Source: Clostridia bacterium (lineage in GTDB: Bacteria; Bacillota; Clostridia; Oscillospirales; Acutalibacteraceae). From it: a stretch of DNA of 64,000 nucleotides. The position numbers and the translations under genes were made by a program. The DNA lies in the NCBI GenBank assembly GCA_017516485.1, contig JAFXCH010000049.1, forward strand, positions 1 through 64,000. The letters are read 5' to 3'. Positions 801 to 54,849 of the stretch are shown piece by piece. The first letter of the stretch is position 1; the number at the start of each line of letters is the position of its first letter. The notes under the pieces are model-generated. The model was not told the origin of the DNA. It saw nothing but the letters and a program-made list of their open reading frames with translations, and made no database searches.

Positions 801-938
801 CTTGTGGTACGGCAGCCGTGTTACGCGTGACTCTTGCGGTGCCCAAAATCGTTTGCTCGCTGTTCGCTCACACGATTTTGACCGCTGCGCCTTTCCTTAT
901 CCTCGCTTCATCCGCCACAGGCGGCACTCGGACGGAAA
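801..938. other. Small module inserted in the tRNA-Leu 5' region
   Basis: This non-coding insert lies between the two 34-bp repeats. It contains TGACTCTTGCGGTGC (828-842), a hairpin of AAAATCGT and ACGATTTT arms (846-879), and a short-loop hairpin CCGCC-ACA-GGCGG (912-924). The same two signature pieces, in the same order and orientation, occur in the insert beside tRNA-Arg (54641-54770). This suggests a small mobile or retro-copied family associated with tRNA genes. No protein is encoded; the ORF at 802-1029 is a by-product. Confidence 0.6.
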
Positions 939-26255: not shown

Positions 26256-26272
26256 ACAAAACGAAATAAATA

Positions 26273-26362
26273 CAGGGGAGCTTGTGTGAGCAGGCTGAGA
26301 GGAAGTAATCAAACTTCGACCCTATAACCTGATGCGGATAATGCCGCCGTAGGAAGTCATAC
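26273..26362 (+). promoter_or_regulatory. TPP riboswitch 1 (THI element)
   Basis: AGGGGAGC, CTGAGAGGA, a P3 hairpin arm, GACCCTATAACCTGATGCGG, ATAATGCCG and GTAGGAAG occur in the canonical order of the thiamin pyrophosphate aptamer. It is followed by its own terminator at 26379-26410. Confidence 0.95.
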
Positions 26363-26378
26363 AAATGAGTTTTTACAG

Positions 26379-26410
26379 GAGGCATCCGAAAAGGGTGCCT
26401 CTGTTTTTTT
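26379..26410 (+). terminator. Riboswitch 1 terminator
   Basis: GAGGCATCC-GAAAA-GGGTGCCTC stem then seven T; expected to form when TPP is bound. Confidence 0.85.
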
Positions 26411-26423
26411 ATTTCATAAATTC

Positions 26424-26507
26424 CGGGGAGCCGTTATGGGCGGCTGAGAGGCAGGTGAACCTGCGACCCGCAAACCTGATCCGGATAATGCCGGCGTAGG
26501 AAGCATA
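26424..26507 (+). promoter_or_regulatory. TPP riboswitch 2 (THI element)
   Basis: A second complete aptamer: CGGGGAGCC, GGCTGAGAGG, GCAGGTGAACCTGC P3 hairpin, GACCCGCAAACCTGATCCGG, ATAATGCCGGCGTAGGAAG. It is diverged from copy 1, so it is not a recent duplication. Confidence 0.95.
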
Positions 26508-26548
26508 AAGTATAACAGTAATCTGCAGTAAACTGATATTACTTCAAG

Positions 26549-54419: not shown

Positions 54420-54586
54420 TGTATTTTGAATTATAACAGAGATTTCAGATTAAATCAATTGTTCATCTGTCTTGTCTATTGGCAGTGCCGATACATAAAC
54501 TTCTTCACTATTCATTATTACTTACTACCTAATCGACAAGTTTCATTAGAGAAGAGTGAAAAGTGAAGAGTTAAGAGTGAAAATGT
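54420..54586. other. Gene-free segment with purine-rich repeats
   Basis: Contains GAAGAGTGAAAAGTGAAGAG followed by TTAAGAGTGA (54551-54580), a run of imperfect GAAGAGTGA units, and a rough complement TTCTTCACTATTCATTATTAC at 54499-54519. It looks like a fragment of a dispersed repeat; no gene is seen. Confidence 0.5.
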
Positions 54587-54622
54587 AAAATCGACAAGTA
54601 TCACGCGAAACTTGTCGATTTT
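54587..54622 (-). terminator. Terminator after the tRNA-Arg-derived block
   Basis: AAAATCGACAAG / CTTGTCGATTTT stem directly after the duplicated tRNA 3' end on the minus strand. Probably the original tRNA-Arg terminator before the insertion. Confidence 0.75.
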
Positions 54623-54640
54623 GGCCCGCCCGAAGGGATT
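54620..54640. repeat. 21-bp direct repeat, copy 1 (tRNA-Arg 3' end)
   Basis: Identical to 54771-54791. It includes the encoded CCA and 3' acceptor/T-arm strand of tRNA-Arg. Confidence 0.95.
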
Positions 54641-54770
54641 TGACTCTCGCACTGCGGTGCTCGGTCATTCGCGGCTCTCGGTGTCCACAGGACACCGATT
54701 CACTACCGCTCCTACTTCGAATCCCTCGCACCGAAAAAAAGCAGCCCACGCAAAAGCGTGAACTGCTTTA
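54641..54770. other. Small module inserted at the tRNA-Arg 3' end
   Basis: Begins TGACTCTCGCACTGCGGTGC and contains the hairpin CGGTGTCC-ACA-GGACACCG (54679-54697), then CTTCGAATCCCTCGCACC, which is itself like a T-arm and acceptor. The TGACTCT..TGCGGTGC motif and an ACA-loop hairpin are shared with the tRNA-Leu module (801-938). No protein is encoded. Confidence 0.6.
54733..54769 (-). terminator. Terminator directly after tRNA-Arg
   Basis: GCAG..CACG / CGTG..CTGC hairpin then T7 on the minus strand. It lies inside the insert, so the insert brought its own terminator. Confidence 0.75.
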
Positions 54771-54791
54771 TTTGGCCCGCCCGAAGGGATT
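54771..54791. repeat. 21-bp direct repeat, copy 2 (inside tRNA-Arg)
   Basis: Functional copy at the 3' end of tRNA-Arg; 151 bp from copy 1. Confidence 0.95.
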
Positions 54792-54849
54792 CGAACCCCC
54801 GGCCTTCAGAATCGGAATCTGCTGCGATATCCAGCTTCGCTACGGGCGG
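54773..54849 (-). tRNA. tRNA-Arg(CCG)
   Basis: 77 nt with encoded CCA at 54773-54775. Acceptor strands CCGCCCG and CGGGCGG pair. D-arm is GCG..CGC, anticodon loop TTCCGAT gives CCG (codon CGG), and the T-loop is TTCGAAT. Its 3' 18 nt are duplicated downstream at 54620-54640. Confidence 0.94.

Follow-up and report, generated by a model that had tools for sequence, protein, structure and literature searches.

Among gut Clostridia there are at least two kinds of tiny hairpin elements that encode no protein and are often located within a broken additional tRNA copy, next to the intact gene. Two such inserts are present in the 64,000 nt of a Clostridia bacterium genome analysed here (the window; GenBank assembly GCA_017516485.1, contig JAFXCH010000049.1, positions 1 to 64,000), and they belong to two different element families, E and B. 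The original prediction had described the two inserts from the sequence, and its structural parts were confirmed: the inserts lie at a tRNA-Leu(CAG) gene (702-788) and a tRNA-Arg(CCG) gene (54773-54849), both on the minus strand and both recognised by ARAGORN and Rfam, and the two hairpins with an ACA loop that it had listed are present, CCGCC-ACA-GGCGG at 911-923 and GGTGTCC-ACA-GGACACC at 54680-54696. When the whole window was compared with Rfam at the gathering cut-off, neither insert matched a family. Elsewhere the window holds a tandem pair of TPP riboswitches (26264-26519).

At the tRNA-Leu gene all the parts are on the minus strand. A promoter-like TTGACA-17-TAAAAT (994-1022; 11 of 12 consensus matches, recognised by pattern only) lies 5' of the broken tRNA-Leu copy (939-972), which consists of the leader and tRNA nt 1-22 and ends in the D loop (GGCAG|), as the exact repeat and the comparison within the genus indicate. 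Element E with its hairpins 1 and 2 follows at 831-938; the covariance model R1, built from 48 E copies, matched 831-942 with 98.6 bits, the last 4 nt of the match being tRNA. A tail at 801-830 separates the element from the intact tRNA-Leu, whose own nt 1-22 and 12 nt of leader (767-800) form the other copy of the predicted exact 34-bp repeat. The tail was defined by its sequence and by comparison with the same-genus loci of G001, G003 and G009: it begins TCACGCG, after the junction the tRNA-Leu itself runs on as ACGCG, and the tail recurs at the same tRNA in other copies and is, by eye, absent at other tRNAs. On the other side of the tRNA-Leu gene, positions 1-576 encode the end of a protein with DUF4368 (E-value 1.4e-18), which we take to be a domain of large serine recombinases.

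At the tRNA-Arg gene, again on the minus strand, a terminator-like hairpin (54738-54769, pattern only) lies between the intact gene and element B. The left flank of B is GAGGGATTCGAA (54716-54727), an inverted copy of the 3' strand of the T loop and T stem, with 10 pairs before the second mismatch (row L384). Element B itself (54644-54718) comprises a covarying hairpin, whose NGU loop is closed by GCGG/CCGC, and then a small hairpin with a CGCA loop (alignment A2); the covariance model R2, built from 19 B copies, matched it with 83.4 bits, the first 3 nt of the match being T-loop sequence. A second tRNA-Arg 3' part (54620-54643), from the T loop to the 3' end (tRNA-Arg nt 59-77 in the same row), completes the arrangement. 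The repeat 54620-54643/54771-54794 has 24 nt with one mismatch, 21 of them exact as predicted. Just past this second piece, at 54531-54622, AATCGACAAGTTTC occurs in direct and inverted repeats.

The proposal that both inserts share one small module did not hold, since their similarity is at chance level: in the shuffle test proposed beforehand, 371 of 1000 dinucleotide shuffles scored as high. The best local alignment joins TGACTCT and TGCGGTGC over a 5-nt gap with a score of 17, which was also reached by 344 of 1000 shuffles with the insert trimmed to 95 nt and by 70 of the 484 tiles of the window (a few tiles over the Arg insert were left unscored). In E, the common GCACCGC provides the 3' side of a long stem, and in B it is part of a short hairpin of its own. 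Furthermore, at an E-value of 1 or less in the window, R1 misses the B insert and R2 misses the E insert. A single family for both inserts was rejected on the shuffles and tiles together with the lack of cross-matches between the covariance models. The claim that both inserts have the same order and orientation relative to their tRNAs needs qualifying, because E is 5' of the intact tRNA-Leu and B is 3' of the intact tRNA-Arg, behind the terminator-like hairpin.

Read in the RNA sense, the first part of E runs from a variable arm x through GA(G/C)CG or similar, an inner stem with an NGU loop and A..CAG(C/G)GAG to arm x', and the second part consists of GGCGC(A/C)GCGGTC, a variable stem and GGGCACCGCAAGAG. 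The x/x' arms and the inner stem with its NGU loop form hairpin 1, and GCGGTC...GGGCACCGCAAGAG forms hairpin 2. Regarding the ends, alignment A1 has a constant, sharply conserved right end, CGCAAGAG, and a variable left end (the x arm). The fold is conserved, with changes on both sides at 7 of the 19 predicted pairs. The x/x' arms, which are outside this 19-pair model, have at least 9 of their 10 positions paired in 48 of 74 distinct copies (from 83 matches), compared with a mean of 7.4 and a maximum of 12 copies in 100 partner shuffles; mean pairing was 8.58 of 10 positions within copies and 7.07 after shuffling.

Element E is widely dispersed. A search with 801-938 gave matches in 21 of 59 genomes, outside the genus mainly to query nt 31-131, and R1 matched 43 of 120 genomes of the family, with up to 31 matches in one genome, and 36 of 291 genomes of the class, across 15 numbered families. 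All three counts include the source genome, and those made with R1 are lower bounds because the filters were strict. A pattern scan of named genomes gave at least 119 stretches, 80 of which were analysed, with titles such as Clostridia, Oscillospiraceae and Ruminococcus; almost all of the named records are metagenome assemblies, and most other genomes consist of tens to hundreds of contigs. The E pattern had no match in phage records, it was found in 5 viral contigs, all 5 of them matched by R1, and a single match came from plasmid records. This is L301 in Vescimonas fastidiosa pMM35_01, an annotated 861-kb replicon record, where E lies between SufD-family and GntR-family genes with the flanks GGCCGATG and CATCGGCC. 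When five further E loci were compared with Rfam at an E-value of 1 or less, the sole matches were to tRNA and, once and below threshold, to Gut-1, the latter outside E.

E sits beside tRNA fragments far above chance. An ARAGORN tRNA lies within 500 bp of 41 of the 83 E pattern matches, as against 9.1% for random positions in the same loci. A tRNA piece is present in the 60-nt flank of 65 of 113 distinct E copies from 110 loci (120 found, minus repeats and copies less than 20 nt from a locus end) and in 1 of 565 control windows. A separately drawn sample, made up of 35 copies from the class search and the plasmid copy (one of the 37 matches, at a locus start, was omitted) and with none of its loci within those of the first, gave 22 of 36 against 4 of 180 controls. 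In 50 of the 65 tRNA-flanked copies there is an intact tRNA gene for the same amino acid within 500 bp, and 10 of the other 15 are within 500 nt of a locus end. Four other hairpin-repeat patterns from the same loci had tRNA pieces in 0 of 34, 0 of 12, 0 of 7 and 0 of 2 cases (the 7 and the 12 overlap partly).

These pieces are arranged in a regular way. Right-hand tRNA pieces, including the start of the intact gene, are all on the E strand (43 of 43 in the first sample and 12 of 12 in the second), and the left-hand pieces comprise 35 direct and 8 inverted ones in the first sample and 7 direct and 8 inverted ones in the second. The junctions are mostly in D, anticodon or T loops: 24 of the 33 direct left pieces that reach the E junction end at tRNA nt 22-23 or 37, and 22 of the 30 right pieces that start inside the tRNA near the junction begin at nt 36-61. 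For instance, E splits a tRNA-Ser at 18|20 in L313, and in L316 one tRNA-Met copy has two E insertions, one in the D loop (19|21) and one after nt 48. Direct repeats across E with a score of at least 18 were found in 44 of 56 tRNA-flanked copies, 11 of 46 other copies and 1 of 306 controls, 11 E copies with short flanks being unscored, and their length ranges from about 18 to 200 nt. Inverted repeats closing on E were not above control (3 of 56 tRNA-flanked and 0 of 46 other copies, against 4 of 306 controls).

At the tRNA-Leu(CAG) site, presence of E varies within the genus. It is present in G000, G001, G003 and G009, no E was seen in this stretch of G002, G005, G006, G007 and G010, G004 has an apparent deletion scar, and the contig of G008 stops too early to be scored. 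Such variation, together with the number of matches in the richest genome, makes it very unlikely that the elements are functional RNAs or attenuators of tRNA operons, maintained for a regulatory role and not by selfish spread. The conserved fold would agree with that function, as would the position of E between a promoter-like site and tRNA-Leu and that of B behind a terminator-like hairpin; against it, E also occurs in protein genes, in 5S-like sequence (by eye) and in other repeats. Many copies of E, 48 of the 113 of the first sample and 14 of the 36 of the second, have no tRNA piece. Among ten stretches viewed, the reading frame stays open through E in an aldo/keto-reductase-like gene (L103) and a phage-like gene (L078, L278), the genes being named by reading, and in L062 and L136 E is, by eye, inside an antisense 5S rRNA-like piece, its opposite flank being an inverted piece of 5S. 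In G100, the genome with 31 matches, no ARAGORN tRNA was found in the 20 stretches read, where E is mostly embedded in another palindromic repeat.

Element B is dispersed as well. A search with the Arg insert gave matches in 7 of 59 genomes, the source genome included; they lie at the tRNAs for Arg, Leu(GAG) and Gly, close to Trp and, in G038, in other repeats. With the tRNA-Trp region of the source genome as query, 10 of 11 genomes of the genus were matched, several of them through the tRNA alone, and the B part was matched in six (G000, G002, G003, G006, G008 and G010). Of 13 B copies placed behind tRNA genes (Trp, Leu, Pro, Arg, Ala and Ser) in the stretches that were read, three were assigned by eye where the sequence was too short for ARAGORN. 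R2 matched 15 of the 120 family genomes. A tRNA piece is present at 26 of 43 B copies (45 matches, two of them read twice) and at 3 of 200 controls, and at 13 of 27 when the copies used for building the model and their equals are excluded; the 17 copies lacking one include several in other palindromic repeats. Taken together with the results for E, this upholds the view of the original prediction that these are protein-free, tRNA-targeting mini-elements, whose covariance-model matches cluster at tRNA pieces with variable flanking duplications, as that prediction had named in advance as supportive.

The flanks of B have a pattern of their own. At tRNAs the right flank mostly starts in the T loop, at TCRA. 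The left flank repeats that T-loop and T-stem strand as its inverted complement. At least 7 pairs between these arms were counted in 18 of 20 rows chosen as tRNA-associated (L353 and L377 are offset and low), and five at most in six rows away from tRNAs. In the source genome, an identical 77-nt B copy is found at tRNA-Trp and at tRNA-Leu(GAG), flanked in each case by direct and inverted pieces of that tRNA's own sequence. A fixed attP would not yield such locus-specific pieces around identical copies, and this speaks against the elements being attachment-site leftovers of integrase-driven islands that integrated at tRNAs and then lost their genes. The 3' ends and loops of tRNAs are classic integrase targets, and the DUF4368 protein end adjoining tRNA-Leu would fit such an origin; nevertheless the fold conserved by covariation is unlike that of remnants, and we regard leftovers of this kind as very unlikely.

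Further element types were observed in the source genome. A direct exact self-piece of at least 17 nt lies within 400 bp of 6 of its 28 tRNA genes examined, namely Trp, Pro TGG, Gln CTG, Leu GAG, Arg CCG and Leu CAG. Near tRNA-Pro(TGG), a type that recurs in L331, L330 and L039 interrupts a broken tRNA-Pro copy at its D loop (L016); its hairpin 1 is E-like, with weak R1 matches, and its second half is different (GGAAGAAATACAGAGC...). On the 3' side of tRNA-Gln(CTG), L017 has a hairpin element bordered on one side by an exact copy of the T arm in inverted orientation (GAATAGGGATTCGAA) and on the other by a second 3' end of tRNA-Gln. By eye, TCTGAGCGTTAAGAAAACAGTTCGGTGAACTG... is common to L016, on the 3' side of tRNA-Pro, and to L034, downstream of tRNA-Leu in G009, and in these two species the element adjoins inverted pieces of the T arm, from a different tRNA in each.

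For the dispersal, conserved fold, tRNA association, junction positions, strand bias, duplications and identical B copies observed here, we consider the following explanation a fairly probable one: E and B are non-autonomous dispersed DNA hairpin elements of two sequence families, which prefer loop positions of folded tRNA genes and whose target is repeated by copying. The element would be copied into a loop of the folded tRNA gene, and the copying would duplicate the target in direct orientation, starting at the junction and running outward to include either the tRNA 5' part and leader or the 3' part and trailer; in B it would also leave an inverted copy of the 3' strand of the T arm. The end state would be a broken tRNA copy holding the element beside an intact gene, and the presence of this intact gene would explain the survival of the host. 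The mobile form is presumably DNA and not RNA, the target appears to be read as a folded single strand, the repeats would result from snap-back copying, and an enzyme supplied in trans is probably involved. This reading is weakened by the many copies that lack a tRNA piece (48 of 113 and 14 of 36 for E, 17 of 43 for B) and by the G100 stretches, by the closing inverted repeat not being general, by the gene search described below, and by the metagenomic or fragmented state of most of the genomes.

Two observations make us prefer a mechanism in which the element is copied into a folded loop of DNA and snap-back repair follows. Firstly, on one contig of G005 a broken unit of tRNA-Trp (L054) and the corresponding intact gene (L339) are 3.6 kb apart and have 174 nt in common, 152 of them identical; this duplicate extends from the T loop to past a terminator-like hairpin, and its identity is weakest at the far end. 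Secondly, G-U pairs are scarce in hairpin 2 of E (378 Watson-Crick, 5 G-U and 9 mismatched cells of 392), compared with tRNA acceptor stems (1137, 60 and 14, respectively, preselected for at least 6 of 7 pairs); this argument is limited to hairpin 2, as G-U had counted as a pair when the x/x' helix was chosen and the pattern for the inner stem of hairpin 1 was poor. Both observations count against a route through RNA, in which element RNA would join a pre-tRNA at a loop and, after reverse transcription, the copy would recombine beside the gene. The strand of the right-hand tRNA pieces (all on that of E in both samples), the loop junctions and the duplication of both leader and trailer would agree with this route, which we nevertheless judge very unlikely, since the inverted target copy in B also argues against it. 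As to the earlier suggestion of reverse transcription primed by tRNA, we found no positive evidence, and the duplication well past the terminator and the G-U scarcity in one stem speak against it.

The main rival to a DNA hairpin element moved in trans differs from it solely in having no dedicated enzyme: template switching between hairpins during replication, guided by short homology to tRNA loops (TTCRA, T loop), would spread repeats among tRNA genes. The target-specific inverted copies at B and the match of B ends to the T-loop consensus would follow from such a process, and the tandem arrays, the variable duplication lengths and the negative gene search are also consistent with it. On the other hand, the junctions are regular, the right end of E is sharply conserved, and 15 numbered families seem much for a passive process, so we hold template switching to be possible rather than likely. 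Regarding the gene search, no mobilising gene was found: R1 had 0 matches when 20 stretches surrounding Y1 transposase genes were scanned, of which 16 belonged to E-bearing genomes. Half-elements bracketing a gene were not seen by eye in a weak scan, which had L061-L099 outside it and a hairpin-1 pattern so strict that many whole copies were listed as half. A Y1 transposase is present in 23 of 43 E-positive and 30 of 77 E-negative genomes, by a hand count that assumes the same 120 genomes in both scans. We set RAYT/Y1 transposases aside as movers of E, there being no proximity in the 20 stretches and no clear co-occurrence; 'divergent' Y1 genes alone seemed enriched, and this subset, picked post hoc, was dropped.

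Among known systems, the nearest in habit are the Rickettsia palindromic elements (RPEs), protein-free palindromes of about 150 bp that are widespread and often in frame inside genes, as described in the part of PMC10969869 available to us; the comparison is by described habit and not by sequence. E resembles them in being read open through the genes of L103 and L078/L278, as RPEs inserted in frame are. However, E and B favour tRNA loops, copy their target and live in other hosts, whereas the available part of PMC10969869 names no tRNA targeting, with 0 occurrences of 'tRNA'. MITEs are likewise short, non-autonomous and present in many copies, but E has no terminal inverted repeats (alignment A1, by inspection) and no short target duplication of fixed length, its repeats ranging as given above. 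REP/REPIN sequences are hairpin repeats moved in trans by the RAYT (TnpA-REP) transposase; unlike these, E was not found near Y1 genes in the 20 stretches, and other hairpin repeats of the same loci are away from tRNAs. Integron attC cassettes were also considered, since attC sites conserve fold rather than sequence.

tRNA-integrating islands and tycheposons use tRNA genes and leave an intact gene. E and B share this use of tRNA genes and the remaining intact gene with tRNA-integrating islands and IMEs, but they carry no integrase, for which elements of about 75-108 nt have no room, and they have no fixed attachment sequence, the flanking tRNA piece being copied from each target. The retrotransposons of Dictyostelium and yeast that target tRNA genes bear genes. 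As far as the parts of PMC5911963 and PMC5006619 that we consulted describe them, they resemble E and B in using tRNA genes as sites; E and B, in contrast, are gene-less and lie inside the tRNA sequence. Our literature search, which had most subscription journals outside it and is weak evidence, gave no account of hairpin elements in broken tRNA copies.

More tentatively, there may be a guild of unrelated tiny hairpin elements, including E, B and the others at tRNA-Pro and tRNA-Gln, which would land by the fold of tRNA genes. In such a guild single-stranded hairpins would be read, the D, anticodon and T loops would set the placement, the intact tRNA would be rebuilt by direct and inverted copying, and one machinery in trans would serve all; we regard this as possible rather than likely.

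tRNA genes are essential, yet six of the 28 examined here have pieces of themselves nearby. Elements that enter tRNA loops and spare the intact gene would show how DNA without genes can exploit a target that is universal, structured and indispensable. This would account for fragments of tRNAs, and for unusual leaders and trailers, in Clostridia, and the elements would be natural assays for hairpin-guided DNA insertion. Furthermore, the systematic pseudo-tRNAs that they leave are a warning for tRNA annotation.
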